Source of the DNA: Uliginosibacterium gangwonense DSM 18521
GTDB lineage: Bacteria; Pseudomonadota; Gammaproteobacteria; Burkholderiales; Rhodocyclaceae
Reading direction: 5' to 3'
Assembly: GCF_000373965.1 (NCBI RefSeq)
Contig: NZ_KB892863.1
Coordinates: 62,001-126,000, forward strand
DNA length: 64,000 nt
Shown here: piece by piece, positions 11,685-45,936 of the stretch
Position numbering within the stretch: the stretch's first letter is position 1
How the letters are laid out: each line of letters begins with the position of its first letter
Position numbers and translations under genes: made by a program
The notes under the pieces: generated by a model
Database searches by the model: none
Told to the model about the DNA's origin: nothing
The model's input: the letters and a program-made list of their open reading frames with translations, nothing else

Positions 11685-11888
11685 GATGTTTCTCCTTAAT
11701 TTTGGATAGGAATGACCACGAGAAGATTGCATGGCAGGGGGCTCCGCTCCGTGCGCTGCAATCAATCTCTGGGGGATTCGGAGAAATGTATGGCTTGGAT
11801 GATCTGAACAGAACGAAGCAATATTCAGATGCTTATCAGGAAAACAGAGGAAGGGCTGAAAACAGACTAGATGCAGAGGTCATCTTGG

Positions 11889-11918: not shown

Positions 11919-11954
11919 ACAGGCGCCACACAACAAATGAAGGGGAGAAGATGC

Positions 11955-13151: not shown

Positions 13152-13199
13152 GTTATAGCATCCAAAGAGATTCAGTGGGGTGTGACGTAGGTTGCGCGC

Positions 13200-13814: not shown

Positions 13815-13854
13815 GGAGTTGAATGCTTATTCGAATCTGTTTTGCCTGGGGGTT

Positions 13855-14340
13855 TTATTGTTGTGCTGCATTGTGAGGTGTAATCACTACACCTGCTTCT
13901 TTGAGGCGCTCCAGCACGACAGAGGTCCGTAGGTGGCTGACGCAGTTACGCAGCGAAGCCAGTTCTTGAATCAGGCGGCTCAGGTCAGCCAGATCAGCAA
14001 CGGCTACCTTGATGAGATAGTCATAATCGCCAGTCAGCTTGAGCACGTCAAGAATCGAGTTCTTTTGCTGGACGAACTGATGGAAAACTTCGACCGCATC
14101 CGGGGAATGGTTCACCATCCGCACTTCTACTACGCCCATGACCGGGGTGCCGTCAGCTTCCGGAGCAAGTTGGGCATGGTAGCCAAGAATCAGTCCGGCT
14201 TGCTCCAAGGCGATGCGCCGTCGTGAGCATTGCGAGGCGGAAAGGCCGATGAGATCGGCAAGCTCCTGGTTGGTGAGACGCCCATTCAGACGTAAAAAAT
14301 CCAGCAGCTTTCGGTCGTTGTCGTCGATCTGGTATGACAT
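13855..14340 (-). CDS. Lrp/AsnC-family transcriptional regulator
   Basis: A 161-residue regulator with an N-terminal HTH (DRKLLDFLRLNGRLTNQELADLIGLSASQCSRRRIALEQAGLI) and a C-terminal RAM ligand-binding domain (VEVRMVNHSPDAVEVFHQFVQ...DYDYLIKVAVADLADLSRLI). Such proteins sense amino acids. Its place between aroP and tyrB suggests control by aromatic amino acids; this is inference from context. A GTG two codons upstream is an alternative start. No strong ribosome binding site is seen for either. Confidence 0.85.
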   Translation of the reverse strand: MSYQIDDNDRKLLDFLRLNGRLTNQELADLIGLSASQCSRRRIALEQAGLILGYHAQLAPEADGTPVMGVVEVRMVNHSPDAVEVFHQFVQQKNSILDVLKLTGDYDYLIKVAVADLADLSRLIQELASLRNCVSHLRTSVVLERLKEAGVVITPHNAAQQ

Positions 14341-14445
14341 GCTCACAATGCTCTCAAATTTTAGAGGGATGTCCGGAAATTGATCCAGTCAGCCAATCGT
14401 GAGCCACGGCTTTGCGCTGATGGCGCACGTTTGGTTGAATCAAGA

Positions 14446-15828: not shown

Positions 15829-16361
15829 AACCGTTCGATTCTTAAAATAAATTGCTATGTATGGCTTTGCTTCGCACGCCACTGGAGCAAAGCGCCTTGC
15901 TCAAAAACATTCAGCAAAAACGAGGCCAGTTTTTCCAAATCAGAAAAGTGTCAAATAAACCAATTGTTTAGCTTGACCTTGGCCTTATCGCAACCTGTCC
16001 ATAGATATCACAGCATGTGAATCAATTTGGTGCGTTATGCAATATTTGTGTGCATGAATTGTTTTGTTGCATGAATTAAGCGTTATAGTTATGTTTGTGC
16101 AAAGAATGTACGTTTAGGCATTCAAATCCAAACAAAGCTCTATCACAAGCTCACCTTGATTCCAGCACTGGTGGTGACTGGAATGTTCGGTTTATCCCTT
16201 GATTGAGGGCTTCTATAATCACCAGCCGCCAGTTTAACCCGACTCGTGACCTCCCGCTCTGCGTTTGCATCAATAAGCTTTGGTTTTGGGCATGGTTACG
16301 CATGTTTTGCGCAAGAACAGTGGGTCTTGGCAAGCGTAATGCGCATAGTTGCTTCTCTTCT
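15829..16361. other. 533-base intergenic region upstream of aroP with regulatory-looking repeats
   Basis: I see no credible gene. At 15950-15977 there is an imperfect palindrome with ends GTCAA and TTGAC and centre AATT, whose minus-strand side supplies a TTGACA hexamer (a possible aroP -35). At 16051-16060 and 16068-16077 the decamer TGCATGAATT is directly repeated with a 17-base period. Short frames on both strands here have no ribosome binding site. TyrR boxes of the E. coli consensus are not evident. Confidence 0.4.
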
Positions 16362-17273
16362 CTATTCTTTGGCCTTGATTGAATAGTGTTTGTCCAGCCA
16401 CTGTTCCATGTGGCTGACGAAGCTGCGCACCTTGGCGGACAGATGTTTGCGGCTTGGGTAGACCGCAGAAATCGCCAGGGGGGGGATCGGCCAATGCGTC
16501 ATGATCTCCTGCAAGCGGCCATCTTCAACCAAAGGACGCAGGATGAAATCCGGCGCACGGGTAATGCCCATGCCCGCGGCGGCCATTTCTGCAAGTACTG
16601 TGCCGTTGTTGGCATGGATGGCGCCGTTGACGTGGATCTTTTGTGCAGGCTCGTCTCCATGCGCAAAGACCCATATATGCGGGTCGCCCGTGTAGGCGTA
16701 GGTTAGGCAGTCATGCTGAGCAAAGTCTTCCGGTGTTTGGGGTGCGCCGCGTCGGGCCAGGTATTCCGGGCTGGCGCAGATCATTGTGCGGGCGGAGCCA
16801 ATACGGCGCGCAACCAGGTTCTGGCTGCCTAGGGCGCCAATCCGGATGGCCAGATCAATCCCCTCTTCAATCAGATCGATTGCCCGGTCAGCCAGTACAA
16901 CATCGAACTTCATCCCAGGGTAGGCTCTTGCATACTCACCTAAGGCGGGGGCCAAATGGGTTGCGCCAAAGCTGACCGGGGCTGTCAGGCGTAGTGTGCC
17001 GCGTGGATTGGCGGTATGGGTGCCCACCATTTCCTCGGTTTCTGCTAGATCGGCCAAGATCTGAAGGCAGCGTTCGTAATAAGCGCGACCATTCTCCGTC
17101 AGGCTGATGCGGCGTGTGGTGCGGTTGAGCAGGCGCGCATCCAGCATGGCTTCCAGCTGTGCGACTTGGCGTGACACGGCCGAAGTCGAAAGGTCCATCC
17201 GGTCTGCTGCACCCGCAAAGCTGCCGATTTCCACGACTTTGCAAAAAACCTGCATTGCATCGAAACGATCCAT
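16362..17273 (-). CDS. LysR-family transcriptional regulator
   Basis: A 303-residue LysR regulator. The N-terminal winged HTH is MDRFDAMQVFCKVVEIGSFAGAADRMDLSTSAVSRQVAQLE, and the remainder is the two-lobed effector domain (RGTLRLTAPVSFG...YPGMKFDVVLADRAIDLIEEGIDLAIRIG). The sequence type resembles the large DhcR/AaeR-like group. It is divergent from the extradiol dioxygenase gene with 130 bases between starts, so that gene is the likely target. Effector unknown. Confidence 0.85.
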   Translation of the reverse strand: MDRFDAMQVFCKVVEIGSFAGAADRMDLSTSAVSRQVAQLEAMLDARLLNRTTRRISLTENGRAYYERCLQILADLAETEEMVGTHTANPRGTLRLTAPVSFGATHLAPALGEYARAYPGMKFDVVLADRAIDLIEEGIDLAIRIGALGSQNLVARRIGSARTMICASPEYLARRGAPQTPEDFAQHDCLTYAYTGDPHIWVFAHGDEPAQKIHVNGAIHANNGTVLAEMAAAGMGITRAPDFILRPLVEDGRLQEIMTHWPIPPLAISAVYPSRKHLSAKVRSFVSHMEQWLDKHYSIKAKE

Positions 17274-17403
17274 GAGAAGCCCTTTGTTGCGAATTTGGCA
17301 ATAAATAATTGTACATGCGCTGCTTTATCTCTGCAGTAGGGATGAGCACAATCACCTCATGGATTTCAAGCCGCCTAATTGATGCGGCACTGAGGAGCTT
17401 ATC

Positions 17404-18189
17404 GTGACGACCCGCATGCCTGTTTTGTTTATTTCCCATGGCTCACCGATGCATGCCATTGAACCCAGCACGGCAGCAACGGCTTGGGCGGAGTTTGCTG
17501 CAGGAATTCCAGTTCCGCGTGCCGTGTTGATGGTCTCCGCACACTGGGAAAGTGGGATTCCCCTGTTGGGCGGTAATCCTCAGCCGGAAACGATTCATGA
17601 CTTTGGCGGGTTCCCCGAAGAACTTTACCGTATCCACTACGCGGCCCCTGGCGCACCAGACGTTGCGCAGGAAGCCCTGCAGCTCTTGCGTGACGCAGGG
17701 TTTTCTGCGGGCATTGAGGGCTGTAGGGGCTTGGATCACGGCGCCTGGATTCCCATGCTCAAGATGTATCCGCGCGCCAATATTCCCGTGTTGCAACTTT
17801 CAGTGCAGCCCGCACTGGGGGCGCCGCATCATCTTGCACTCGGGCGCGCGCTGATGGCTTTGCGGGATACGGGCGTTTTCATCATTGGCTCCGGGCATAT
17901 GACACATAACCTGCGTGATTTCTTCGTGAATCCGGTTTCGTCCGGTGCTGTACCGTATGTGAAGGAATTCCGGGATTGGGTCGACCAACGCGTGCGCAGT
18001 GGCAACACAGAGGAATTGCTGCAATGGGAACATCTGGCGCCGCATGCTCGCCGTGCGCACCCTACGAGCGAGCATTTTTTACCACTGTTTGTGGCCTTGG
18101 GCGCGGCAGGGGAAGGCTACAAAGTGGAATCCAGTTTTGAATATTTTGATGGCGGCGTGTTGGCAATGGATGCCTACAAGTTTGTTTGA
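17404..18189 (+). CDS. ygiD: LigB/DODA-type extradiol ring-opening dioxygenase (YgiD-like)
   Basis: A 261-residue class III extradiol dioxygenase of the 4,5-DOPA dioxygenase type. Metal-site His residues are visible in VLFISHGSPMHA near the N terminus, CRGLDHGAWIPMLKMYP in the middle and GSGHMTHNL. The GTG at 17404 is the start: GAGGAG lies 6 bases upstream. E. coli YgiD cleaves L-DOPA at the 4,5 bond; the natural substrate is not settled for most homologues. Divergent from a LysR gene, which probably controls it; terminated by a clear hairpin. Confidence 0.83.
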   Translation: MTTRMPVLFISHGSPMHAIEPSTAATAWAEFAAGIPVPRAVLMVSAHWESGIPLLGGNPQPETIHDFGGFPEELYRIHYAAPGAPDVAQEALQLLRDAGFSAGIEGCRGLDHGAWIPMLKMYPRANIPVLQLSVQPALGAPHHLALGRALMALRDTGVFIIGSGHMTHNLRDFFVNPVSSGAVPYVKEFRDWVDQRVRSGNTEELLQWEHLAPHARRAHPTSEHFLPLFVALGAAGEGYKVESSFEYFDGGVLAMDAYKFV

Positions 18190-32364: not shown

Positions 32365-32691
32365 GACTGCTTCCTTTGCCAAGCACTTGTTTGGCCTGAT
32401 CTTAGCAGCGGCGGCGTGTCTGCGTGTGCTCAACTTGTAGCCAATTTGTTACCAATCTTTATGGATATCTGCAGATGTTGCCGCTTAGTTGACCTATTAC
32501 TCCGGTAAACGCAGGAAATATGGCCGAGAGGACGTCAAACCTTGCTTCAGACCGGATGGGCAGATTTTGCATGCATGTGCTGACTGCATTGTAGGATCAA
32601 TGAGGGGGCCGATACATGGCCCCTTGGCCGACATGCAGCAACTGCATGGGTGCGACAACGGCGCTGGCAATACCTTGGATGGGGGCAGAAC
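32365..32691. other. 327-base divergent promoter region, mdtA / hydB
   Basis: Contains the start regions of two divergent operons and no credible gene. Short symmetric elements are visible on the hyd side: GGGGCC/GGCCCC around a 7-base loop (32605-32623) and CATGCAG/CTGCATG around CAA (32632-32648). A TTGACC hexamer at about 32489-32494 has no good -10 partner at 16-18 bases. I found neither an FNR-box (TTGAT-N4-ATCAA) nor a convincing sigma-54 site. Confidence 0.4.
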
Positions 32692-33804
32692 ATGAAAGAC
32701 ATGCGGTATTTTCCCCGGGCTGGTTTGGCCGAATTGATTGCGGCAATCAAGGAATCGGGTTATCGGGTAATTGGCCCGCGTGTGGAGCCGGGGCAAGGGG
32801 GGCTGGCGTACCGTGAGATAGCAGGGGTAGAAGATCTTCCCCGGGGCTTGTCGGATGAACAGTCTCCCGCGCGCTATCGCCTTCATCCCAATGGTAGCCA
32901 GCGATACTTTGCCTGGGCCAATACTTCGTCGGCGATCAAACCCTTTGTATTTACGCCCAGAGAGAAACTTTGGACGGTGGTCCGCAAAGAGGGGCGTCTG
33001 CACTTTGAGGCAAATCATGAAGTGGCGAAAAAAACCGCCGTCTTTGGGGTTCGGGCTTGTGATCTGGCCGCGTTGGCATTGCAGGACGCCCATTTTCTTC
33101 GAGGTGCGCATACGGATGTGTTCTATCGGGCAAGGCGTGAAAAATTGCTGCTCGTCGCTGTCAACTGCAGCCACGCGGCAGAGACATGTTTCTGCGCATC
33201 TACTGGGGACGGCCCTGAAGTTTCCGATGGCTACGATTTGCTGCTGGATGAGTTGGATGACGGCTTTTTGATCCGGCATGGCTCTACCAAGGGGGCTATG
33301 ATCATGACGGATCTGGTAACCCAGGAGGCTAGCCCTGAGCAGATATCCCAGGCGTGTGCGCAGGGGGAGTTGTGCCGTGAGAGGCAAACGCGTGCCTTGC
33401 CTGAAGCATCCAGGCTACCCGGTTTGATGCAGCGTCTGGAAAGTCCTTTGTGGGATGAGGTCGCAGAACGCTGCCTGGCATGTGGTAACTGTACGGCGGT
33501 ATGTCCAAGCTGTTTTTGCCACCGGGAATTCGACTCACCCTTGCTGAATGGGAAACATTCAGAGCATTGGCGGGATGCAGATTCCTGCTTCAGCGAAGAC
33601 CATAGTTACCTGGTAGGCGAAGTGGTGCGCGCGCATACGCGAGCGCGTTACCGGCAGTGGATGACCCATAAGTTGGCAACTTGGGTTGAGCAGTACGGGC
33701 GAACGGGGTGCACTGGCTGTGGGCGTTGTATTACATGGTGCCCAGCGGGAATTGATTTTGTTGACGAAGCCAACAAGCTGCTGTCAGCAGAGGAGGAGGC
33801 ATGA
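32692..33804 (+). CDS. hydB: Group 3b [NiFe] hydrogenase beta subunit, 4Fe-4S protein (HydB)
   Basis: A 370-residue iron-sulfur electron-transfer subunit of the bidirectional NADP-linked hydrogenase (sulfhydrogenase). Two ferredoxin-like clusters are visible near the C terminus: CLACGNCTAVCPSCFC and CTGCGRCITWCP. Earlier Cys residues in VRACDLAAL and ETCFCAST match the family. It relays electrons between the NiFe module and the flavin subunit in the cytoplasm. The ATG at 32692 is chosen because MKDMRYFP starts the conserved region; the ribosome binding site is weak. First gene of hydBGDA. Confidence 0.88.
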   Translation: MKDMRYFPRAGLAELIAAIKESGYRVIGPRVEPGQGGLAYREIAGVEDLPRGLSDEQSPARYRLHPNGSQRYFAWANTSSAIKPFVFTPREKLWTVVRKEGRLHFEANHEVAKKTAVFGVRACDLAALALQDAHFLRGAHTDVFYRARREKLLLVAVNCSHAAETCFCASTGDGPEVSDGYDLLLDELDDGFLIRHGSTKGAMIMTDLVTQEASPEQISQACAQGELCRERQTRALPEASRLPGLMQRLESPLWDEVAERCLACGNCTAVCPSCFCHREFDSPLLNGKHSEHWRDADSCFSEDHSYLVGEVVRAHTRARYRQWMTHKLATWVEQYGRTGCTGCGRCITWCPAGIDFVDEANKLLSAEEEA

Positions 33805-34640
33805 TGAAAACGCATAATTGCTATGTGCCTCACGAGGCCGAAATCATTGAGCGGGTGCAGGAAACGCCTGATATCTTTACTTGGCACCTGCGGTTTTCCG
33901 ATGCTGAGATTGCACAGCACTATCGCTTTCGCCATGGGCAGTTCAATATGCTGTATTTGTATGGTGTGGGTGAGGTGGCCATCTCGGTGATGTCTGGGGA
34001 TGGAGAAAACCTTTGGCATACCGTAAGGGCTGTCGGGCGGGTCACCAAGGCCATGATGGATCTGCCTGTGGGAAGCCGCATTGGGGTGCGTGGCCCCTTT
34101 GGCAGTTATTGGCCCTTGGATATCGCTCGTGGCAAGGACGTTGTCTTTGTTACGGCGGGCCTGGGGTGTGCGCCGGTCATGTCATCAATCCGTTATGTTG
34201 TCGAGCATAGGCAGGATTATGGCAGACTGGTGATTATGCAATCTGTACGCCATCGTCATGAAAGCCTGTGGGAGCCACAGTATGAGGCTTGGCGGGCGCT
34301 ACCGAACACTCAGGTGCTGTTGACTGCATCGCGGGACCAGACACGCTGGCCAAATTGGGAGTTGGGCCGCGTGAGCGTGCTGCTGGAAAAAGCGGATTAC
34401 AACAAGGAAGAATGTGTCGTGATGATGTGCGGGCCAGACGCAATGATGCGTGATACCGCCATGACCCTGAAAGGTCTTGGTGTGACGGCCGCAAATATTT
34501 ATGTGTCTTTGGAGCGCAACATGCAGTGTGCGGTTGGGCACTGTGGGCATTGCCAACTGGGTGGCAAGTTCGTTTGCAAGGATGGGCCGGTATTTCCTTG
34601 GCCCGAGGTCGAAGCTCTGATGTGTGTGAAGGAGTATTGA
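33801..34640 (+). CDS. hydG: Hydrogenase gamma subunit, FAD/NAD(P)-binding reductase (HydG)
   Basis: A 279-residue FNR-type flavoprotein. FAD site FRHGQFNMLYLYGVGEVAISVM, NAD(P) site VFVTAGLGCAPVMSSIRYV, and a C-terminal [2Fe-2S] Cys cluster in MQCAVGHCGHCQLGGKFVCKDGP. It passes electrons to or from NADP(H). Its ATGATG start overlaps the hydB stop by four bases, with GAGGAGG just upstream. Not to be confused with the radical-SAM HydG of [FeFe] hydrogenases. Confidence 0.9.
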   Translation: MMKTHNCYVPHEAEIIERVQETPDIFTWHLRFSDAEIAQHYRFRHGQFNMLYLYGVGEVAISVMSGDGENLWHTVRAVGRVTKAMMDLPVGSRIGVRGPFGSYWPLDIARGKDVVFVTAGLGCAPVMSSIRYVVEHRQDYGRLVIMQSVRHRHESLWEPQYEAWRALPNTQVLLTASRDQTRWPNWELGRVSVLLEKADYNKEECVVMMCGPDAMMRDTAMTLKGLGVTAANIYVSLERNMQCAVGHCGHCQLGGKFVCKDGPVFPWPEVEALMCVKEY

Positions 34641-34641
34641 G

Positions 34642-35451
34642 ATGAATGCCTCTGCCAACACACCCATGCCCAAGGTGGCCATCCATAAATTTGCTTCTTG
34701 CTCGGGTTGTCAGCTCGCTTTTGTGAACATGGGCACCGATCTGATTGAACTGACCAAGCTGGTCGATATTGTGCACATGGCTGAATTTGGACATGTAGCA
34801 CCAGAAGATGAACCGGTAGATGTTGCGTTTATCGAAGGTTCTATCACCACACCACATGACGTGGAGCGCCTGCTGAAGATCCGTGCCAACAGTCGCTATC
34901 TGCTCACCATGGGAGCATGTGCCACATCTGGCGGCATTCAGGCTTTGCGCAACAACGCCGATACAGCCGAGTGGATGCGATCGGTATATGCCAAGCCAGA
35001 ATTCATTCAGTCTCTATCCAGTTCCGCCGCAATAGCCAACCATGTGAAAGTGGACTTTGAGTTGTGGGGTTGCCCGGTGAGTGTGCGCCAGATGCTGGCG
35101 GCAATTCGTTCGCTGCTCTTTGGCGTGGCGCCGCAGATTTCTCGTGAGAAGGTCTGCCAGGAATGCAAACGCAGGGGAAACAACTGCATTTTGGTCACGC
35201 AGGGCGCTCCTTGCATGGGGCCGGTGACGCGCACCGGTTGCGGTGCTTTGTGCCCATCTTTTGGCGCACCATGCTATACCTGCTATGGGCCTGCTGAAAA
35301 TGTGAATGCACAAAGTTTCGGCATGTGCCTGATGGGGTTGGGCTTGAGCCCCGAGCAGGTGGCGCGCAAGTTTGCTTCGATCAACAATGCGGCCCCTGTG
35401 TTCAGCGAAGCAACCCAGTTGTTTTCCGGCAGTGCCTGGATGGAGGAATGA
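34642..35451 (+). CDS. hydD: [NiFe] hydrogenase small subunit, delta (HydD)
   Basis: A 269-residue small subunit of the NuoB-like fold. Proximal cluster motif SCSGCQLAF at Cys20/Cys23, a further Cys in TMGACATSGGIQ and ELWGCPV, then an extended cluster region with CQECKRRGNNC, GAPCMGPVTRTGCGALCPSFGAPCYTCYGP. There is no twin-arginine signal, so the enzyme is cytoplasmic, as expected for group 3. It starts one base after hydG and carries electrons from the active-site subunit. Confidence 0.9.
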   Translation: MNASANTPMPKVAIHKFASCSGCQLAFVNMGTDLIELTKLVDIVHMAEFGHVAPEDEPVDVAFIEGSITTPHDVERLLKIRANSRYLLTMGACATSGGIQALRNNADTAEWMRSVYAKPEFIQSLSSSAAIANHVKVDFELWGCPVSVRQMLAAIRSLLFGVAPQISREKVCQECKRRGNNCILVTQGAPCMGPVTRTGCGALCPSFGAPCYTCYGPAENVNAQSFGMCLMGLGLSPEQVARKFASINNAAPVFSEATQLFSGSAWMEE

Positions 35452-35455
35452 GAGC

Positions 35456-36772
35456 ATGAGCCATACCGCCAATCATGATCCCAATCGGGAAATCCGGATT
35501 GATGTGCCATTGCTGACCCGCGTTGAAGGGGAGGGTTCGCTAGAGTTCGTTGCCCGCAACGGGCGTATCGAAAGTCTGCAATTGCGGATTTTTGAACCTC
35601 CTCGATTGTTTGAAAAATTTCTTGAGGGCAAGGATTATTCGGAAGTGCCCAATATCGCTGCACGGGTCTGCGGCGTGTGCCCGATTGCCTATCAGATGAC
35701 CTCGATCCGGGCGATGGAAAAAGTGTTTGGCATGCAGGAATCTCCCTGGGTGCATGCCATGCGCCGTGTGGTGTATTACGGAGAGTGGTTGCAAAGCCAT
35801 GCCTTGCATTTGAACCTGTTTGCCGCACCAGACTTTCTGGGTTTTAGCGATGTCATCCATATGGCACATCGTCACCCTGAAGATGTCAGGCGAGGGATGC
35901 ACCTGCAGGAATTGGGGAATGACATGCTTCGCTTGTTGGGGGGGCGCTCGGTGCACCCGATTGGATTACGGGTGGGCGGCTTCTTTCGTGCCCCACCCAA
36001 GCACGAGGTGGCTGATCTTGTTGACAAGCTGTTGGCTGCTCGTGATTTAGTGCGGGAGTTTGTGGCATGGGCGGTCGGTTTGCCCTACCCGAAGGACGAA
36101 CAGGAATTTGTCAGCATTGCAGTGCGTCATCCTCATGAATATGGAATCAATGAGGGGCGTTTGGCATCGGATCGTGGATTGGACATTGATTTTTCTGAAT
36201 ATCCCGAGCGTTTTCGTGAGCACCAAGTATCCCATTCAACGGCTCACTACTCCATGCTGGATGGTAGCAGTTATTTCCTGGGGCCATTGGCCCGGATGAA
36301 TCTGAATTTTGATTTGCTTCCGGCTGAAGTGCAGGATCTTGCTCGTGAACTGGGTCTGCGTTTTCCCTCTCATGATATGTTTCATAACGTGGCAGCCCGT
36401 GCTTTGGAGTGCTATCTGGCGGTAGTGGATAGCCTGAATATATTACAGGCTTATCGTTTGCCTAACCGCCCTTGGATTGAGCCAACGCCGCGTGCCGGAG
36501 TCGGGCATCATTGCACTGAAGCACCGCGCGGCATGATCTATCATCGCTTTGAACTGAATGAAAGTGGAGAGGTGATTGCTGCCACAATGATTCCCCCCAC
36601 ATCGCAGAATCAAGCCCGCTTGGAACAGAATCTTAACGTGGCGATGGAGCGCTTCGGTCTTCAACATGCTGACGAGCAGTTGCGTGAGTTATGCGAGAAG
36701 GTGATCCGCAATTACGACCCATGCTTGTCTTGTTCAACGCACTTCCTGAAAATGACCGTGCATCGTGAGTGA
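35456..36772 (+). CDS. hydA: [NiFe] hydrogenase large subunit, alpha (HydA)
   Basis: A 438-residue catalytic subunit. Nickel ligands: RVCGVCPIAY (Cys72, Cys75) and DPCLSCSTH at the C terminus (Cys423, Cys426). The residue that is His in the N-terminal motif of respiratory hydrogenases is Tyr here; I recall this as common in group 3b but cannot verify it. After DPCxxCxxH there are nine more residues (FLKMTVHRE), the peptide expected to be cut off by the maturation protease encoded next. It starts 4 bases after hydD; AGGAATGAGAG precedes the ATG. Together with HydBGD it would couple H2 to NADP(H). Confidence 0.92.
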   Translation: MSHTANHDPNREIRIDVPLLTRVEGEGSLEFVARNGRIESLQLRIFEPPRLFEKFLEGKDYSEVPNIAARVCGVCPIAYQMTSIRAMEKVFGMQESPWVHAMRRVVYYGEWLQSHALHLNLFAAPDFLGFSDVIHMAHRHPEDVRRGMHLQELGNDMLRLLGGRSVHPIGLRVGGFFRAPPKHEVADLVDKLLAARDLVREFVAWAVGLPYPKDEQEFVSIAVRHPHEYGINEGRLASDRGLDIDFSEYPERFREHQVSHSTAHYSMLDGSSYFLGPLARMNLNFDLLPAEVQDLARELGLRFPSHDMFHNVAARALECYLAVVDSLNILQAYRLPNRPWIEPTPRAGVGHHCTEAPRGMIYHRFELNESGEVIAATMIPPTSQNQARLEQNLNVAMERFGLQHADEQLRELCEKVIRNYDPCLSCSTHFLKMTVHRE

Positions 36773-37211
36773 GGTGTTGATTGCTGGCGTGGGCTCTTCG
36801 CATGGGGCCGACCGTCTGGGTTGGGAGGTGGTGGATGCACTCCAACAGCGTCCACTGCCACCGGAGGTGGGGCTGTATCATTGCAGCTTGCCGGTAGAAC
36901 TCAGCTCCCTCTTGTTGTTGTCAAAATATGCGATTGTGGTCGATGCGATGCTTGGGCACGGCCCCGTAGGTAAGATACATGTGCTGGGAGCAGACAATCT
37001 ACCTCAAGCCCGTTTTTCTTCCGGGGCGCATGGCGTCGGTTTGAGCGATGCCGTTGGATTGGCGATTGCCCTTGGGTTTGAACCCCGGAATTTGTCGGTA
37101 GTGGCATTGGATGTGGTTCAACCCGATGCGGTATGGGACCCGGAATGGGTCGCTGTTTTGACGCAAGCGGTACTTGCCCGCTTAACAGAGGAGCTGGAAA
37201 AAATTCCCTGA
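36765..37211 (+). CDS. Hydrogenase maturation protease (HycI/HyaD family)
   Basis: A 148-residue nickel-dependent endopeptidase that removes the C-terminal peptide of HydA after Ni insertion. Family fold marks: VLIAGVGSSHGADRLGWEVV at the N terminus, AIVVDAMLG with the central Asp, and SSGAHGVGLSDAV with the His ligand. The first metal site is less standard (GADRLGWE rather than DDGVG). The GTG start at 36765 overlaps the end of hydA by 8 bases. The other maturation genes, hypA-F, are not in this window. Confidence 0.82.
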   Translation: MSEVLIAGVGSSHGADRLGWEVVDALQQRPLPPEVGLYHCSLPVELSSLLLLSKYAIVVDAMLGHGPVGKIHVLGADNLPQARFSSGAHGVGLSDAVGLAIALGFEPRNLSVVALDVVQPDAVWDPEWVAVLTQAVLARLTEELEKIP

Positions 37212-37223
37212 CTTCGTGATCCA

Positions 37224-37262
37224 TCTCATCTGGCCACAGCCCCTGTTGTAGCCAGAGAGATA
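37224..37262. terminator. Hairpin between convergent hyd operon and lemA
   Basis: ATCTCATCTGGC and GCCAGAGAGAT pair (TCTGGC/GCCAGA core plus an AT-rich extension with one bulge) around a 16-base loop. It lies 12 bases past the protease gene and 20 past the lemA stop. No long U-tract on either strand. Confidence 0.45.
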
Positions 37263-37282
37263 AGGTTGCCAATGGTCGTTAT

Positions 37283-37846
37283 CTAGGATGCAAAATGTAC
37301 AAATTCGGGCTTGGGGTGATAGCCAAGAAACGTTGCAAAAATGCTGCTTGGGAATGAACTGGTCAAGGTATTGTACTGCGCGACAGTTTCGCTGTACTTT
37401 TTGCGCACCTCGTCCAGGCGATTGTTTTTGTCGGCGCCATCAAGATAGTTGTTCATTACCGTAATTTCACTGCTCTGGCTCAGGGCTGGGGAGGCTTTGG
37501 CTACTGCTTTTACCCGATACATGGCTCCGGTCAACATGGCCTGAGCCTGCTTAAAATTGTCGAATGCTTGCGAGTCTTGAATCAGCATTGTAGTTGGGGG
37601 TTGCTTGCGCGCATCAGAAAGAGCTTGTTCTAGCGCTTTGATCGTATTGGCATCGAAGCCGGGTTGGGCTTTTGCCGTGACGATTACCGCCTGAACAGCA
37701 TCATTTCGTTCTGCATAAGTATTTGTAACGCTTTGCCAAGCTGTAAGTACCTTTGAGTCGGCCTGCGAGAGTTGGTTGATCAATATGCCACTGATTACAA
37801 TGGCTACAACAATTCCCACCAACGCTATACGCTTAAAAACCTTCAC
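37283..37846 (-). CDS. LemA-family membrane protein
   Basis: A 187-residue protein with one N-terminal membrane helix (RIALVGIVVAIVISGILINQL) followed by a helical cytoplasmic or periplasmic domain with LTAWQSVTNTYAERNDAVQAVIVTAKAQPG and RKKYSETVAQYNTLTSSFPSSIFATFLGYHPKPEF, the C-terminal family signature. The GTG at 37846 is preferred because AGGAGG lies 8 bases upstream and it opens at the membrane segment; the frame continues 38 codons upstream without a membrane or signal character. Function of LemA proteins is not established. It lies downstream of the cellulase gene on the same strand. Confidence 0.8.
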   Translation of the reverse strand: MKVFKRIALVGIVVAIVISGILINQLSQADSKVLTAWQSVTNTYAERNDAVQAVIVTAKAQPGFDANTIKALEQALSDARKQPPTTMLIQDSQAFDNFKQAQAMLTGAMYRVKAVAKASPALSQSSEITVMNNYLDGADKNNRLDEVRKKYSETVAQYNTLTSSFPSSIFATFLGYHPKPEFVHFAS

Positions 37847-37991
37847 TTCTTTTTCCTCCTCATGCGCGTTTCGTCCCCCCGAAACAGGGTCAGGTGGAGC
37901 GATACTGCTTGATTGCAATCTACGACTGTGACTGTATTGACTGGGTATTCCTTGTTCCAAAGCGATGTCCCTGGCCTCGCCTGGAGTTGAT

Positions 37992-38023
37992 AGAGCCAGT
38001 GGGGCTTTTGCTCCACCGGCTCT
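37992..38023 (-). terminator. Hairpin after the GH48 gene
   Basis: On the minus strand AGAGCCGGTGG pairs with CCACTGGCTCT (one G-U) around a 10-base loop, 19 bases after the cellulase stop. No U-tract, so either a rho-assisted end or an RNA-stabilising stem between the cellulase and lemA. Confidence 0.5.
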
Positions 38024-38042
38024 GCTCAGATGCTAATTGAGA

Positions 38043-40781
38043 TTACTTCACCGTGATTTGACAGTTATGGCTGGCAAGGCTGACATTGCTCGGCACGGGT
38101 TTCGCGCCACTGTACGTCAATTGCATGCCGAAGCCAACGTTTCCAGCGGCCGGGATGCTGCCATTGGAACTGGAGGGCGTAACCGTCATGATGCGACCAC
38201 TTTGTTTGATGGTGCCATTCCAAGAATTGACGACTGTAAAGTCATTCGACTCTGTCCAGCTTAGGCTCCAAGCATTGATGGGCGATGTTCCCGTGTTTTG
38301 CATTGTAACTTGAAGCACCTGACCCACACCCCAGTCACTGGATGTATCTACCGTTACATTGCAATCGCTGGGAACCGGAACAACTTTATCCTTGTCGTGC
38401 TCGGTGACAATTACGGATGCAGTTGTAAAGCTTGTAGCACTCAAGGTAAATGTTGCGGTGCCGTCGACCTGGTCGCTGTCAATGGCGGCTGCAACAGTCA
38501 CTGTTTGTGGTACGTTGTAGTTGGTCGGTGTAAAGGTTAGCGAGGTGGCCGATGCACTGACAGAGTCTTCGCCTGATACCTTGGCAATGCTCACGACCGT
38601 GTTGGCGGTGGGGGCGTCTGACAAGGCTACGGTGAAGGTGCTGCTGCTGCCTTCGTTCACATCAACGCCCGAGCTGCTGACGACAATGGAGGGGCTTGTG
38701 TTGGTCAAAAGGCGTCCGTAGTCAGCCATTGCCATGGCGATGTCTGATTGGGCCCAGAACCGGTGGTAAGTCCACGTCGTTGCACTAGAGGGGTTTTGGA
38801 TGAAAGCGTTGAGCTTGGCCCAGTCTTTGTCATTTTGATACTTAGGACGCATACTGGCGAAGGTGACGTTCTGATCGATTGTCGCCCCTTGAGCGTTCGT
38901 TCCAGTCCAACCCGACGGAATATAGATGCCTTGTCCGGTTGTGGCGTTGTACTTGTCGGTAAAGCGAGTGTAATCCGCGCGGGTTTCTGGAACGGCTACG
39001 CCAAGTGAATCCTGATACTTCGTCCACATGCGATCCAGCAGTTCCTTGGCCAGAGTTTTGGCCGCAGCACTCTTGGACTTTGCCGCATAGAAGGTCAGGG
39101 TGCGAGCCAGACCTGCCGTGGGGCCAACGTCGGTCGTGTAATCGACGATCGATACATGCAAGCTGGCATTCTTCCCTGGTGAGGTAGGATTCCAGGTATC
39201 AGGCGCGCCACTCCAGGCCAGGGTGCTTGGAATCGCATAGGTGCCATCTGTATTCAACTTGACGTTTGCAATGACCCACGTCACCCACTTATCAAGCAGG
39301 GCCTTGGCTTGGGTATCGCCTGTTGAGTAGTAATACTCTGCGACCCGTTCCATTGACCATGCCTGCATGCCAAACCATTGGTTGGAGGGCGGATCGTTGT
39401 AGACAGGCGCCACTACATAAGGCATGCCGTAAAATGTGGGTGTTCCTGCCGGCGGTTGTGCATAAGACCCACCGTAACTATTTGTTGCTCCGCCTGCAAT
39501 GGCCCCTTCAGAGGATTGCAGCCAAGTATAGAACTCCATCATACGCTTCAAACTCTTGCCCCAGTCTCCCGCTCCAGTCGGCGTGGCTGGCTTAAAGTCT
39601 GAAACGCTGGACAATACCCAGGCAGTCAAGGGGTTTTGATAGCCGAAGTGGTTATGGCTGTCACCAATCCGCCAAGCCCACCCGCCATTGTCCAGGGCGC
39701 CTCCCCATGCATAGTACCAACTCATGAGGTAGTGTTGATTATCGCGGTAACCGCTGGCATCTGCTTGACCCGTACCTGGCTGGCAGGTTGTGGCGCCAAC
39801 GCAATTTCCGATTTTCTTGAAGTACTTGTCAAACATTGAATAGCGTAGATAGTCACCCATCTTGGATGCTTTTTTGACTATGTCCGCAATGTCTGCACTC
39901 TTACCTTGCGCTTTGGCCCAGACAGAAGCCCAATATACCGCTTGGATCGCACGTGCATCTGCATCTGGAGCATTGGTATAGCGCCATTGTTTGGAATAAT
40001 TGGAGTCTTGCATGAACAGACTCAAGAAGCCCTGGGTGTTCCCTGTGCGACCCCATTTAAAGGTTTCGCAGGAAGGGTGGGGTACGGTTTCCCACACAGA
40101 CTCCTGTTCGCCGCGTTGGAAGGTGTTGATATATGCAGGTTTGGTTACACCGTCGCCACAGTGCCCATATCCATACCAGTTATCCACGTCCAACAGCCAG
40201 TGCATGCCATAGATATCTTTTGTACCGTAGGTGCCGGATAGCTCGGCAAAAAGCGGATCTTTCCCAGGCGTTGCAGCGCTGTTCATCGGTGAGGGGTAGC
40301 TGCTGGGCTGCGGATATTCGGGCGCATAGGTGGCCGGCTTGCTGTCGTTGTATGAAGCGTTGCTCGGCTGATCGGTTTGGGCAGGAATAATATACTTTTC
40401 CATATTGGCCCAAGCTTTGTTGAGCGGTGCCCAATCGCCTGTTGCACGCCCGTATTGGGCTTCCAGCCACAACCAATAACTGTATGCTTCCGACGTGGTT
40501 TCATGACCATAGTCGGGCGCCTCGACAATCATGGTTTCAACAGAGTGATAAGGAACTCCGTCTGAGCTGAAGTAGCCGTTAGCCGGGTCCTTGATTTTGT
40601 TGTATTGCGTGATGAAACGTTGGCTATATTCTGCTTGGTCATCTGCGGCATAACTGTTTGCGGCCAGTAGGATAGCGAGTGCAGAGAAAGCTGCTTTTAT
40701 AGAGCAGCGTGCAAGCATCTTTCCCACCTCCATACCGATAACAGATCTATTTGCCTTCTTGATGAACACATTTTTTCTCAT
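38043..40781 (-). CDS. Secreted glycoside hydrolase family 48 cellulase with Calx-beta and CBM2 modules
   Basis: A 912-residue modular exported enzyme. A Sec-type signal ([16 protein letters not shown]) ends about residue 45. The GH48 catalytic domain fills residues about 50-695: the acid Glu98 lies in [16 protein letters not shown] and the base-containing segment is [13 protein letters not shown]. Residues about 705-800 form a Calx-beta/immunoglobulin-like module ([29 protein letters not shown]). The last 105 form a type 2 cellulose-binding module with Cys at both ends (CNVTV...HNCQITVK) and exposed Trp in SDWGVG, NAWSLSW and VVNSWNG. GH48 enzymes are processive reducing-end cellobiohydrolases. 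ATG 40781 has AGGAG 7 bases upstream; ATG 40718 has an even better GGAGGTGG and gives a standard 25-residue signal, so it may be the true start. No other cellulase gene is nearby. Confidence 0.93.
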
Positions 40782-42241
40782 AATCATACTCCTGATGTAT
40801 TAAGCATAATCAATAGGCGCATCTACAGCAAAATCTCATTCCACTTAAAAATGTGGAATGCTATCCCAGCACGGTTACGGGATATCTTGTTTGTATGAAG
40901 TCTTTTTTGACTCACACATTAAAAACAACTCCTGTGAAGATCAAAATCTTCTGTGCTTACCATATTAAGTATGACATTTTGTCATATAAAAAATACCATG
41001 TGCGTAGAGTTTGTTAAAAGACTGGCTTTTTATGGAACAAGCCAACACTAAACAAACGAACAGAAGTGGTTTTTAACATGCACCATTGGCTGAATTTGGC
41101 ACAAAAATTTGTTATGAAAACGTTTGCATAGATAAAAACAGATAAAGCTTCCCCAGCCAGATTTGGGACGCGTTTGCGAGTCGCCAAATTCTGCCTTTAG
41201 TAATAACTCTGTCCGTGGAAACCGTCTGTCAGGAAAGCTTGAAAAGCACTTACCGCATGTCTCCTTTTATAATCGCTGAGCTAGATTTTTATCATCTATT
41301 TAGCGCTTCCAACAGTTTAAACAAGCTATTAACGCATGATCTGTTAAACCTGGGTGTGCAATGCTATTTATATAAGTTGTAATGCATGTTCTGCATGTAT
41401 TGCTATAAGCATATACACCTATTATGTTTACCCTTTCCTTGCCCGTAGAAAATGAGAAATCGTTTAATCAAAGCATTTTTGGCATTTTTGAATGGTATTT
41501 TCATTTCGAACGCCAAATAAATATCGACAGTATTTCTTCGTGTGATCAATATTGGGCACTCAAGCTTGCCAATTTCAACCCTGTTTTGAGGGTAACCGTG
41601 GCCTCGTTCCTAAAGTTTTTGAAAGACAATCCTTAATTATCAATGGGTTAATGTCATAGCGTTAGGAAATATGCGTACCCCAATGGCTTACACCATAAGC
41701 CTTTTTAAAGATTTTAACATTCGTATGCCCTTTTGTACCTATCTAAACGTAATTTTAAAATATGTTTATCGGGTTTTGTTCGTTTTGCGAACTAAATGGC
41801 ATTCTGTTCTTGAGCATGCCCTCCAAATTTTTATGTGATTGCCTACCGGATTTTGGAAAGTAAGCAATATATTTACGGTATGAAGTTAGAAAATGAGTCT
41901 AGTGATAGATTCTTGATGTATCTGTATTGGGTATGCAGTGTGGGACTTGTTGTGGTGTGCTGTCAAGACTGTAGTCACCTGCCTTTGGTCGGATTTTTCT
42001 ACGCCAGTGCGATGAACAGGCCCTCGTCACTTGCCAACCTTATGGTGGGATGCCATTCCAGCGGCCCTGTGCTCACGATGAGTGCCGCGACAGGTGTTGG
42101 GCCTTTGGTCGTGTCAGGCGCCTGTACTTGAATCCCATCACTTTTTCAGTGTGTCCGTGAAGCGGGCATTATTGCGAGATTGCGTACTCTTTGCCTGTGA
42201 GCTTGGTACACTGCGGGTTTAGGTTTTAGAAACTCTGTGTG
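40782..42241. other. 1.46-kb AT-rich region with palindromes, no convincing gene
   Basis: Upstream of the cellulase gene and of moeB. Base composition is visibly more AT-rich than anything else here, especially 40800-41900. Symmetric elements: CATTCCAC/GTGGAATG with 8-base loop (40837-40860), TATGACA/TGTCATA around TTT (40970-40986), and ATTTGG...CCAAAT with further GAC/GTC pairing (41161-41189). A 70-codon plus-strand frame (41424-41636) lacks a ribosome binding site. From about 42000 composition returns to normal. On the minus strand, 42130-42003 encodes an uninterrupted protein-like C-terminal fragment (DGIQVQAPDTTKGPTP... ending EGLFIALA) with no start, possibly a gene remnant. Confidence 0.5.
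40837..40860. promoter_or_regulatory. Perfect 8-bp-arm palindrome upstream of the GH48 gene
   Basis: CATTCCAC and GTGGAATG flank an AT-only 8-base spacer, 56 bases upstream of the proposed start. Position and symmetry suit an operator for a cellulase regulator or a leader hairpin; no regulator gene is adjacent. Confidence 0.4.
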
Positions 42242-43003
42242 ATGAACGACGACCAGCTTCTACGGTATTCCCGCCATATTTTGCTGCCCGAGATTGATGT
42301 TGAGGGGCAGCAGGGCATTATTGATAGCACTGTGCTAATTGTGGGGGCTGGGGGGCTGGGGTCGCCTGCCGCGATGTATCTGGCTTCCGCCGGGGTGGGA
42401 ACCCTGATCTTGGCGGATGGGGATACGGTGGATTTAACGAATCTTCAGCGCCAGATTCTGCATCGTGAGGATCAAGCAGGGATGCTGAAGGCGGAGTCCG
42501 GCAGACAGACGCTGGCAGGGATCAACCCTGCAACGCAGGTGGAGGTGATCGCCCAACGCTTGGAAGGTGAATTGTTGGAAGAAGCTGTTTCACGTGCCAG
42601 CGTGGTGCTGGATTGCTGCGATAACTTTGCCACCCGCCATGCCGTGAATCGTGCCTGCCTGCGTTACCGCAAGCCTTTGGTATCAGGGGCTGCGGTGCGT
42701 TTTGATGGACAAGTGTCGGTATATGATCTTCGCTACGTAGAAAATCCTTGTTATCACTGTCTGTTTCCAGAAGGTGAGGATTTGGCGGAAATGCGTTGTG
42801 CAGTAACAGGTATTTTTGCGCCGTTGACGGGTGTGGTAGGGTCGCTGCAAGCCTGTGAGGCTTTGAAGATACTGGCTTCTTGCGGTGAGCCCCTGGTGGG
42901 GCGCCTGCTGCTGATTGATGCTTTGAGCATGAACATGCGCACCGTGCGCTATGGCCGTGACCCTGGCTGTGCAGTGTGTGGGGAAGCCGCCGCGCAAAGG
43001 TAG
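42242..43003 (+). CDS. moeB: HesA/MoeB/ThiF-family adenylyltransferase (MoeB-like)
   Basis: A 253-residue E1-like enzyme. ATP site VLIVGAGGLGSPAAMYLASAGVG, the Arg of LQRQILH, VVLDCCDNFATRHAVNRAC, and the structural zinc Cys pairs CYHC and CAVC. MoeB adenylates the C-terminal Gly of MoaD for molybdopterin synthesis; ThiF does the same for ThiS, and the two cannot be separated with certainty here. The ATG at 42242 follows directly a GTG that could also serve; the ribosome binding site is weak. It converges on ribD with one base between the two stop codons. Confidence 0.85.
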   Translation: MNDDQLLRYSRHILLPEIDVEGQQGIIDSTVLIVGAGGLGSPAAMYLASAGVGTLILADGDTVDLTNLQRQILHREDQAGMLKAESGRQTLAGINPATQVEVIAQRLEGELLEEAVSRASVVLDCCDNFATRHAVNRACLRYRKPLVSGAAVRFDGQVSVYDLRYVENPCYHCLFPEGEDLAEMRCAVTGIFAPLTGVVGSLQACEALKILASCGEPLVGRLLLIDALSMNMRTVRYGRDPGCAVCGEAAAQR

Positions 43004-43004
43004 C

Positions 43005-44102
43005 TTAAATGGGGATTGCCCGGATGCGAAGGTCTTCGCCGATCGGGGTGATCTCTTTGAAGCGCAGGTGTGGCGCCGCATCCACTGTGGCGTAATCGGG
43101 CAGGTAGGCCATACCGCGTGCGGGGTGGCCTAGTAGACGGGGCGCCAGATAGAGTAGGTATTCATCGACCAGTCCGTTGGCGATGAACGCTGCATTGAGC
43201 GTCGCACCGGCTTCAACCAGCAACTCGTTCGTACCTTGCTGTGCGAGCAAGGGGAGCAGGGCGTGTAGGTCGATTTTGCCTTTTCCGTCGTCCAGGCAAA
43301 CGAGTTCGGCGCCTGCCTGGGTAAGCGGCTCGGTGCGTTCAGGATGCGTATCTGCGTGTACCAACAGGGTTTTGGCCCCGGTCAGAATTTTGGCCGTGAC
43401 GGGGGTGCGTAGTTGGCTATCAAGCACGATGCGTCGAGGCTGGCGTGGCGTAGCGACGGCCCGCACATTCATCTGCGGATCATCCGCGAGGACGGTTCCA
43501 ATGCCAGTGAGCACCGCACAGGCGCGGGCGCGCCAGTGGTGGGCATCTGCGCGGGCCGCATCTGCTGTGATCCATTGGCTGTGCCCATTGGCCATGGCTG
43601 TTTTGCCATCGATGGAGGCAGCAATCTTCAGGCGCACAAATGGGCGCCCCCGGGCAATTCTGGAAAAAAAGCCTGCATTGATTTCGCGTGCGGCTTCGCT
43701 GAGGACGCCTACCGTGAGGGCGATACCTGCTTCCTGAAGCCGTTTGAGGCCATTACCTGCCACCAGCGGATTGGGGTCTTCCAGGGCTGCAACAACACGG
43801 GCAATGCCCGCTTCGATCAGGGCGTTGCAGCAAGGGGGGGTGCGCCCAAAGTGGGAGCAGGGTTCCAGCGTGACATAGGCCGTAGCACCACTGACATCGT
43901 GACCACGCTGTTTGGCGTCCAGCAGCGCTTGCACCTCGGCGTGATTCTGACCAGCCGGTTGGGTCCAACCTTCGCCAAGGATCTGACCTTCAGCACTGGT
44001 GATGACGCAACCTACACGCGGATTGGGCGTGGTGGTGTACAGCCCGTTTTCGGCAAGCGCCAAAGCGCGAGCCATCAACAATTCATCATTTGCCGCAGAC
44101 AT
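43005..44102 (-). CDS. ribD: Bifunctional riboflavin deaminase/reductase RibD
   Basis: A 365-residue enzyme of riboflavin synthesis. The N-terminal deaminase has zinc motifs NHAEVQAL and EPCSHFGRTPPCC; the C-terminal half is the NADPH-dependent reductase (RPFVRLKIAASIDGKTAMANGHSQWIT, TNELLVEAGATLNAAFI). It performs the second and third steps from GTP (EC 3.5.4.26 and 1.1.1.193). Its ATG overlaps the nrdR stop by one base (TGATG), giving translational coupling. Order glyA-nrdR-ribD is usual in betaproteobacteria. Confidence 0.94.
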   Translation of the reverse strand: MSAANDELLMARALALAENGLYTTTPNPRVGCVITSAEGQILGEGWTQPAGQNHAEVQALLDAKQRGHDVSGATAYVTLEPCSHFGRTPPCCNALIEAGIARVVAALEDPNPLVAGNGLKRLQEAGIALTVGVLSEAAREINAGFFSRIARGRPFVRLKIAASIDGKTAMANGHSQWITADAARADAHHWRARACAVLTGIGTVLADDPQMNVRAVATPRQPRRIVLDSQLRTPVTAKILTGAKTLLVHADTHPERTEPLTQAGAELVCLDDGKGKIDLHALLPLLAQQGTNELLVEAGATLNAAFIANGLVDEYLLYLAPRLLGHPARGMAYLPDYATVDAAPHLRFKEITPIGEDLRIRAIPI

Positions 44103-44575
44103 CAGGCACCTGTACGTGTGCGAGCCTTAGCGGTGACTTCGCGGATCGCTTCGGAGAACTCCTCGGCGTCTTCAAAATTGCGATAGACCGAAGCAAAGCG
44201 GATGTAGGCAACTTTGTCCAGACGCTTGAGTTCGCGCATGACCAGTTCGCCAATCTTTTCGCTCTGAATCTCGCGCTCGCCCATTGCGAGCAGGCGGCCT
44301 TCAATGCGGTCCAGGGCGTGCTCAAGGCTTTCGGCATTGACCGGGCGTTTACGCAGTGCCAACTTCATGCTGGCCTGAATTTTTTCACGATCAAATTCGG
44401 TGCGGCTGCCGTTTTTCTTGACGACTTGGGGCAGCTTTAACTCGATGCGTTCGTAAGTGGTGAAACGCTTGTCACAATCTGGGCAGCGGCGGCGGCGGCG
44501 GATGATGTCGCCTTCGTCATTTTCCCGGGTATCGGTCACCTGGGTGGAGGCGGAGCCACAGAAGGGGCACCTCAT
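44102..44575 (-). CDS. nrdR: Transcriptional repressor NrdR
   Basis: A 157-residue regulator of ribonucleotide reductase genes. Zinc-ribbon: [13 protein letters not shown] with [15 protein letters not shown], followed by the ATP-cone domain ([29 protein letters not shown]). It binds NrdR boxes when loaded with dATP. The ATG at 44575 begins the canonical MRCPFCG; a GTG three codons earlier is possible. The start codon and its GGAG lie in a very strong hairpin (see separate entry). Confidence 0.95.
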
Positions 44576-44599
44576 GGTGCACACTCCGTGTGCACCATG
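44573..44599 (-). promoter_or_regulatory. Perfect hairpin enclosing the nrdR ribosome-binding site and start codon
   Basis: CATGGTGCACAC and GTGTGCACCATG are exact 12-bp complements separated by three bases. In the nrdR message the loop is GGA, part of the GGAG ribosome-binding site, and the last three bases of the stem are the AUG. Folded, it would hide the start; as DNA it is also a near-perfect operator palindrome. It does not match the NrdR-box consensus. Confidence 0.7.
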
Positions 44600-44610
44600 G
44601 AAACAAGGAA

Positions 44611-44678
44611 AGAAGTGAAACGTGATACGTAGTGCCTGACTTCAGAGGTGAGCATTGCGCTATTCACTTTTCACTTCT
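44611..44678. repeat. Inverted repeat in the glyA-nrdR spacer
   Basis: AGAAGTGAAA (44611-44620) and TTTCACTTCT (44669-44678) are exact 10-bp complements separated by 48 bases, between glyA (stop 44686) and the nrdR hairpin. Possible terminator or processing stem; no U-tract. Confidence 0.4.
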
Positions 44679-44685
44679 CCTGTGT

Positions 44686-45936
44686 TTACGAGCCGTAGAC
44701 CGGGAACTTCTTGCACAGCGCGGATACTTCGTTGCGCACCCGTTCGATCACGGCTTGGTCGTGTGGCGCATCCAGCACGTCAGCAATCAGGTGGGCAACA
44801 CGTTCTGCTTCGATTTCGGTGAAGCCGCGCGTGGTCATGGCCGGGCTGCCGATACGGATGCCGGAAGTCACAAAGGGCTTTTCCGGGTCGTTCGGGATGG
44901 CGTTCTTGTTGACCGTGATATGGGCTTGGCCCAGCACGGCTTCGGCTTCCTTGCCGGTGATCTTTTTGGCGCGCAGATCCAGTAGGAACACATGGCTTTC
45001 GGTGCGGCCAGACACGATGCGCATGCCGCGTTGCTCAGAGAGTACGCGAGCCATGGTGCGGGCGTTGTTGATCACCTGTTCCTGGTAGGCACGGAATTCT
45101 GGTGTGGCCGCTTCCTTGAAAGAGGTGGCTTTAGCCGCAATCACATGCATCAGCGGGCCGCCTTGCAGGCCGGGGAAAATGGCGGAGTTGATGGCCTTTT
45201 CATGCTCGGCGCGCATCAGGATTACACCACCACGCGGGCCACGCAGGGTCTTGTGAGTAGTGGAGGTCACCACATCAGCGTGCGGCACCGGGTTGGGGTA
45301 GAAGCCCGCTGCGATCAAACCTGCGTAGTGGGCCATGTCGACCCAGAAGATTGCGCCAACAGCCTTGGCAACCTTGGCAAAACGCTCGAAATCGATGCGA
45401 AGCGAGTAAGCAGAAGCGCCCGCGATGATGATGCGCGGCTTGTGCTCGTGAGCCAGACGCTCCATCGCGTCGTAATCAATCTCTTCCTTGCTGTTCAGGC
45501 CATAGGCAACGACATTGAACCACTTGCCAGACATATTCAGCGGCATGCCGTGGGTGAGGTGGCCGCCTTCGGCCAAGCTCATGCCCATGATGGTGTCGCC
45601 CGGTTTGGCAAAAGCCATCAGCACTGCTTGGTTGGCCTGAGAGCCGGAGTTCGGCTGCACGTTGGCAGCTTCGGCACCGAACAGCTTCTTCAGACGGTCG
45701 ATGGCCAGTTGTTCGGCCACGTCCACATGCTCACAGCCGCCGTAGTAGCGCTTGCCCGGGTAACCTTCAGCGTACTTGTTGGTGAGTTGGGAGCCTTGGG
45801 CTTCCATCACTGCAGCGCTGACGTAGTTTTCCGATGCGATCAGTTCGATGTGATCTTCTTGGCGCTTGTTTTCGGCCTGGATGGCGGCCCAAAGTTCGGC
45901 GTCGGTATGAGCGAGGGTGTCTTTTTTGGAGAACAT
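44686..45936 (-). CDS. glyA: Serine hydroxymethyltransferase GlyA
   Basis: A 416-residue PLP enzyme that interconverts serine and glycine with tetrahydrofolate (EC 2.1.2.1). Characteristic segments: [30 protein letters not shown], the PLP-lysine motif [14 protein letters not shown], and [15 protein letters not shown]. It is first in the minus-strand group glyA-nrdR-ribD and starts [10 protein letters not shown]. No glycine riboswitch is seen in the 75 bases upstream. Confidence 0.97.

Follow-up and report, generated by a model that had tools for sequence, protein, structure and literature searches.

GH48 enzymes are among the main crystalline-cellulose enzymes of many bacteria, and those of insects act on chitin. 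As far as we are aware the export of large multidomain cellulases by Gram-negative bacteria is poorly known, and to the best of our knowledge the function of LemA proteins is also largely unknown. Our search of the literature, in which most subscription journals fell outside coverage, returned nothing that joins GH48 with LemA: where the two words co-occurred Lema was the name of an author, the co-occurrence of 'LemA family protein' with cellulase led to what is by its title a hexosaminidase study, and no title or abstract start in the search had betaproteobacterial GH48 as its topic. In one report on a Flavobacterium mutant, lemA is listed with other genes of membrane homeostasis that are raised in it (PMC13236525).

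The GH48 gene described here lies in a stretch of 64,000 nucleotides from Uliginosibacterium gangwonense DSM 18521 (hereafter the window, meaning the whole stretch of DNA that was analysed), and its features and immediate surroundings are collected in Table 1. For comparison, the best 80 of 323 GH48 relatives in a scan of named genomes comprised 15 betaproteobacterial loci (L002-L016) and 65 actinobacterial ones. The former, together with the window and with G463, make up the set of 17 betaproteobacterial GH48 loci used throughout. G463 is the only other member of the family in which GH48 was found; its GH48 domain is 75% identical to that of the window, and its GlyA 90%.

Table 1. Features of the GH48 locus, in window coordinates.
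Feature	Position	Strand	Basis and remarks
LemA-family small protein, 187 aa	37283..37846	-	GTG start behind GAGGAGG by reading; ORF extends to 37960; Pfam, 75.3 bits
Spacer from GH48 stop to LemA-like start, 196 bases	37847..38042	.	minus strand without terminator-like sites in the scan
GH48 cellulase gene (GH48 + Calx-beta-like domain + CBM2)	38043..40781	-	ORF to 40787, alternative start 40718
CBM2 cellulose-binding module, residues 809-909	38061..38363	-	Pfam
Calx-beta-like beta-sandwich domain, without Pfam match	38388..38693	-	alignment of 17 proteins, model, structural matches
GH48 catalytic domain, PF02011, residues 54-693	38709..40628	-	Pfam and solved homologues
Likely signal peptide region, 24 residues, if the start is 40718	40647..40718	-	by reading of the sequence
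AT-rich upstream region	40788..42238	.	1.45 kb long, no ORF reaching 100 aa; matchless among the other loci compared

The GH48 protein and its relatives

The GH48 gene is an uninterrupted ORF of 914 codons on the minus strand (38043-40787). Two RBS-like starts lie within 40718-40787: the start at 40781, which is the one taken by an earlier, sequence-only reading of this DNA, corresponds to the third codon (ATG), follows AGGAG at a distance of seven bases and looks better than 40787, and a third candidate at 40718 is, by reading, preceded by GGAGGTG. The encoded protein matches Glyco_hydro_48 (PF02011) over residues 54-693 with 1013 bits against a cut-off of 25 (profile positions 1-618 of 619), and CBM_2 (PF00553) over residues 809-909 with 65.2 bits against a cut-off of 24, at full length (1-101 of 101). 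Among solved structures, GH48 enzymes come out as its best relatives (4l0g, E 2.4e-256), and the conserved acidic GH48 motifs that begin at residues 83 (18 residues) and 274 (10 residues), which we take to hold the catalytic residues, align with 4l0g. Judged by these alignments, this is a genuine GH48 + CBM2 cellulase gene, of the cellobiohydrolase type by family.

The sequence-only reading had assigned the architecture GH48 + Calx-beta + CBM2. The two outer domains are borne out by Pfam; the middle one gave no Calx-beta match by sequence, and the resemblance is one of fold. PF03160, presumably the Pfam number of Calx-beta, gave no match in any sequence library with the whole protein, the spacer alone or, at E up to 1, any of 21 copies of the domain, in profile searches of a kind that may miss distant members. 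No other Pfam family matched the middle domain convincingly up to that E, and a search of solved structures with a profile of the middle domain also gave no match. The predicted model of the domain is confident (pLDDT 94.7) and overlays, with 100 of 102 residues, the Calx-beta domains of NCX1 (Z 11.6) and of Calx CBD1 (Z 11.5). Its top structural match is a domain of a ciliary protein (Z 12.8), PapD-like chaperones score 11.2 and below, and in a Foldseek search with the model the first Calx domain appeared at rank 42 (E 5.6e-3). Because the model overlays Calx-beta among other beta-sandwiches and there is no Pfam Calx-beta match, we use 'Calx-beta-like' as a label of fold only, for which it would seem a fair name, membership in the family not being established. 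The acidic residues E14, D43, D72, D74, E98 and D100 are invariant in the 21 copies of the domain and would suit calcium binding.

Each of the 17 betaproteobacterial GH48 proteins has the order GH48, middle domain, CBM2, with the middle domain in one or two copies (two in 12 of the 15 named relatives, one in the window and in L002-L004). The spacer had been singled out as unusual, and since all 17 proteins carry it, it is instead the usual one within this clade. As a further observation from the alignment, the GH48 domain of L004 has a tandem duplication of 12 residues (PTADQPTNSFYN).

The rarity of GH48 that had been supposed was confirmed in our genome draws. With the window's genome included in every count, GH48 passed the Pfam cut-off in 1 of 399 genomes drawn from the order, in 2 of 395 from the family and in 1 of 369 from the class; the family draw contained 7 further members of the genus, none of which has it. 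In G003 (L090, C15) a 1255-aa frame has a weak, sub-threshold match that covers 64 positions of the GH48 profile.

A phylogeny of the GH48 domain, which the sequence-only reading had proposed as a check, was built from 36 of the 86 extracted domains (17 betaproteobacterial, 16 actinobacterial, one from Persicobacter and two from Paenibacillus). It places the window GH48 apart from Actinomycetota: the betaproteobacterial rows, all 17 of them, group in a single clade (99/96, and in 100% of 200 bootstrap trees), to which Actinomycetota are sister. Within this clade the window GH48 stands at the base (next node 92/86) on a long branch, with no close donor among the rows, and a clade of the window with G463 was neither recovered nor rejected by the AU test (p-AU 0.31). 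GlyA of the window's genome shares 76-79% identity with its counterparts in the 15 named betaproteobacterial genomes and 53-58% with those of two actinobacteria. On this tree, the window GH48 belongs as an ordinary member to a small branch of betaproteobacterial sequences.

Further cellulases are encoded in the window's genome, namely a GH9 on C5 that also bears CelD_N and CBM4_9, four GH5 genes (a copy with CBM2 on C7 and further ones on C34, C32 and C1) and a GH44-CBM2 on C19, and these matches rule out GH48 as the genome's only cellulase. The earlier claim that it stands alone, without GH9, GH5 or GH6 partners, thus holds in the neighbourhood for GH9 and GH5 and fails for the genome as a whole. 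Neither GH6 nor AA10 gave a match in the window's genome, and absence of GH6 is not demonstrated because the GH6 search gave no match in any control genome either. On C5 (L145, C5:1-16000, at 4351-9776) the GH9 with CBM4_9 adjoins a GH43 with a concanavalin-like domain, the two being convergently transcribed.

The GH44-CBM2 gene (L144, C19:8000-25881, 1-17880) is situated inside a type II secretion-like cluster that contains the end of a T2SSE ATPase, a T2SSM_b match, a secretin and two pseudopilin-like ORFs with an N-methylation motif. A gene for a DUF6055 protein lies beside it. Because GH44-CBM2 sits among such genes, type II secretion would be a plausible route for the CBM2 enzymes of this genome.

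The LemA-family neighbour of GH48

GH48 had been taken to be isolated in the window, and we find instead that it has a regular neighbour. In all 17 betaproteobacterial loci, the window included, the gene directly downstream of GH48 is LemA-like and has the same orientation, these loci belonging to a few lineages and so not being independent. With the window LemA-like protein as query, tblastn (E up to 1e-5) placed such a gene directly downstream of GH48 in 14 of the 15 named loci and in G463, and in L009 a diverged LemA-like ORF, without a Pfam LemA match, was located at the equivalent place by reading and alignment. The spacer between the two genes, the length of which depends on LemA-like start codons chosen by reading, measures 15 bases in three Rhizobacter loci and ranges from 55 to 89 in the 12 remaining named ones; at about 159 bases in G463 and 196 in the window it is longer than in these named relatives.

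Near GH48 in actinobacteria LemA was found at none of the 65 loci, which span up to 6 kb per side and in some cases less (tblastn at E up to 1e-5, profile search at E up to 0.01), and the profile search at E up to 0.01 also gave no LemA in four plasmid records. The records of Persicobacter, Paenibacillus and Nonomuraea have flanks of only 1.5 kb, so that a missing LemA there is weak evidence.

GH9 follows the pair in L002-L004 and L010, GH5 follows it in L008, L009 and L011-L015, and GH9 precedes it in L005-L007 and L016. In G463 (L143, 6774-15627) genes for GH9, LPMO-GbpA_2-CBM2, GH48 and the LemA-like protein stand in a row on one strand, the first two preceding GH48. Pfam was run on six of all these neighbouring genes. 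In the window, it is a NiFe hydrogenase operon (32650-37211) that converges on the LemA-like gene, this region holding Fer4_22, NAD-binding, Oxidored_q6 and NiFeSe_Hases genes and one ORF without a Pfam match. As far as these sequences go, the GH48-LemA pair is the constant part among the genes compared, and the remaining neighbours vary by lineage.

The window's LemA-like protein matches Pfam LemA (PF04011) with 75.3 bits against a cut-off of 26.2, and a match to this family was obtained for 9 of the 10 GH48-linked proteins scanned, L009 being the exception. The predicted model of the window's protein (pLDDT 89.6) shows the helical LemA fold, with 2etd, a Thermotoga LemA, as the sole PDB match with E below 0.001 (E 6.6e-5; TM-score 0.83 by target length and 0.64 by query length). 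Identity of the GH48-linked proteins to that of the window is 17-33%, each of the 17 loci has an intact frame, and nine alignment columns are invariant. A hydrophobic stretch at the N terminus, with a best Kyte-Doolittle mean over 19 residues of 1.4 to 2.5, is common to all 17, and a lipobox-like cysteine is present in 2 of them versus 20 of 20 lipoprotein LemA. The motif R-x-D-[LE]-[ILV]-P, derived in this work, occurs in none of the 17 linked proteins, in all 20 lipoprotein LemA and in 10 of 11 other LemA. Lipoprotein LemA has a TPM-domain gene directly downstream in 5 of the 5 loci given to Pfam, including the window genome's own (L180).

In a LemA tree of 48 rows, from which two rows duplicating genes already present were omitted, the 17 GH48-linked proteins form one clade (100/100) inside lipoprotein LemA, a clade that long branches, of which the program warned, may have sharpened. 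A profile search of 38 genomes gave one match of 169-244 bits in each of the 17 GH48-positive genomes and no match above 135 bits in the 21 GH48-negative ones, which had shown no GH48 in the draws from order, family and class, a gap that arises partly by construction because the search profile was made from the GH48-linked proteins themselves. Ordinary LemA, at 105-135 or 31-68 bits, was seen in GH48-positive and GH48-negative genomes alike, and four of the 38 were without any match. The linked proteins show what looks like the pattern of a duplicated LemA gene that has taken up a new task. In G463 and in G787 the GH48-linked gene was the sole LemA match at E up to 0.001, ordinary LemA not being found.

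Origin of the locus

The distribution of GH48 fits transfer within Betaproteobacteria or repeated loss. Acquisition of the GH48-LemA pair by this lineage from a different betaproteobacterium, with insertion next to the AT-rich region, is a real possibility, to which we would give somewhat less than an even chance, and it is compatible with other explanations. The scarcity of GH48 in the genus (0 of 7 other members) and in the family (2 of 395 genomes of the draw) speaks for it, as do the congeners, in seven of which thiF lies in stretches without GH48 (in five together with ribD, nrdR and glyA). The GH48 distance to G463, 0.247, is large given a GlyA distance of 0.102. The LemA-like gene has a GC content of 47.9% and a GC3 of 51%, both the lowest of 11 genes measured, and the GC3 of GH48 (58%) is below that of four other cellulases of the genome (62-67%). 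On the other hand, this GC3 is comparable to the 55-61% of the neighbouring hydrogenase genes and thiF, the basal and long-branched window GH48 has no close donor among the tree rows, and a clade with G463 is not rejected. In addition, the 11 ORFs scanned in 32650-45936 gave no Pfam match to mobile-element families.

The AT-rich region beside GH48 was correctly pointed out by the sequence-only reading, with a GC content of 37.5% in 41001-42000 versus about 55% over most of the window. It has no BLAST match to the other loci compared, and since low-GC stretches (below locus GC) also precede GH48 in L008, L009 and L011-L015, such a region is not specific to the window. A promoter and terminator scan found 8 and 7 sites against 6.4 and 6.5 in shuffles, which is no excess.

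The suggestion that the gene may have been acquired is left in a mixed position, with the patchy distribution and the low GC of the LemA-like gene in its favour, and with the betaproteobacterial clade, the lack of a foreign donor among the tree rows and a GC3 like that of the neighbours against it. Vertical inheritance within a betaproteobacterial clade, along with a full cellulase set elsewhere in the genome, had been named as what would speak against acquisition; we found the clade and cellulases elsewhere, whereas the tree does not demonstrate vertical inheritance and the searches for GH6 and AA10 gave no match.

Possible function and comparison with known systems

We hold it at about an even chance that the locus encodes a secreted GH48 cellulase, held on cellulose by its CBM2, beside a dedicated envelope factor derived from LemA. 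The assignment of the enzyme to a betaproteobacterial GH48 clade rests on its sequence, and we infer the role of the LemA-like protein as a GH48 factor from the neighbourhood, the co-occurrence and the lost ancestral motif; because its gene adjoins GH48 in every close relative examined, it may be a helper for export or retention of the enzyme. In such a scheme GH48 would cross the inner membrane by Sec, fold in the periplasm and then leave by a type II secretion system. The LemA-like protein, presumably anchored by its N-terminal hydrophobic stretch with a helical bundle in the periplasm, would help GH48 to fold, to reach the secretion machine or to stay at the cell surface. Outside, the CBM2 would hold the secreted enzyme on cellulose, and the partner enzymes would be the GH9, GH5 and GH44 encoded elsewhere in the window's genome, GH9 or GH5 being encoded beside the pair in relatives. 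A more specific and decidedly tentative version, which we regard as on the unlikely side, is that the gene arose by duplication of one for lipoprotein LemA and was turned into an envelope factor for this cellulase alone, as its chaperone, secretion adaptor or surface tether.

It is also conceivable, though in our estimate less likely than not, that GH48 is an ordinary cellulase and the LemA-like gene a passenger, co-inherited or co-transferred without a working link. A weakly constrained passenger can be imagined because the LemA-like proteins diverge fast, with only 17-33% identity to that of the window, and L009 lacks a Pfam LemA match; moreover, the Spearman correlation of GH48 with LemA-like distances (0.74) is hardly above that of GH48 with GlyA distances (0.69). 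Against this, the other neighbours vary by lineage, whereas the LemA-like frame has stayed intact in all 17 loci and keeps its nine invariant columns. Action of the enzyme on chitin, as in insects, we regard as very improbable: the LPMO neighbouring GH48 in G463 bears a GbpA_2 domain and the window CBM2 has, as one of its weak matches among solved structures, a chitinase CBM2 (2rtt), but the closest solved relatives are bacterial GH48, several of them named cellulases or cellobiohydrolases, and cellulase-family GH9 and GH5 genes neighbour GH48 in relatives, so that chitin as the substrate would not be favoured by gene context.

Returning to the LemA-like protein as a dedicated factor for GH48, the regular pairing offers the LemA family a testable cargo. 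If true, this would be, as far as we know, the first cargo-linked role for a LemA protein, and it would form part of how GH48 works in Gram-negative bacteria that degrade cellulose with free enzymes.

Among known systems, MamQ of the magnetosome, which we take to be related to LemA and to have a specialised role at the membrane, shares a weak profile similarity with the window LemA-like protein (E 6.7e-5), but the latter scores 22.4 bits where the MamQ cut-off is 250. Thermotoga TM0961 (PDB 2etd) and the lipoprotein LemA encoded beside a TPM gene resemble it in fold and by profile match; unlike lipoprotein LemA, the linked proteins are without the core motif (17 of 17) and have GH48 in place of TPM as neighbour. 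The actinobacterial GH48 exoglucanases (NCBIfam CbhB, NF041611) share the catalytic family and CBM2 with the window protein, which scores 1019 against the CbhB cut-off of 1950; they differ in an N-terminal CBM2 in the single Streptomyces-type protein scanned and in Fn3 in the single Cellulomonas protein scanned. The GH48-CBM2 loci of Rhizobacter, Roseateles, Rubrivivax, Massilia and Duganella (L002-L016) have GH9 or GH5 beside the GH48-LemA pair, whereas none lies beside that of the window, and they are like it in the GH48 domain (70.6-73.6% identity), in an equal order of domains and in the LemA-like gene downstream.
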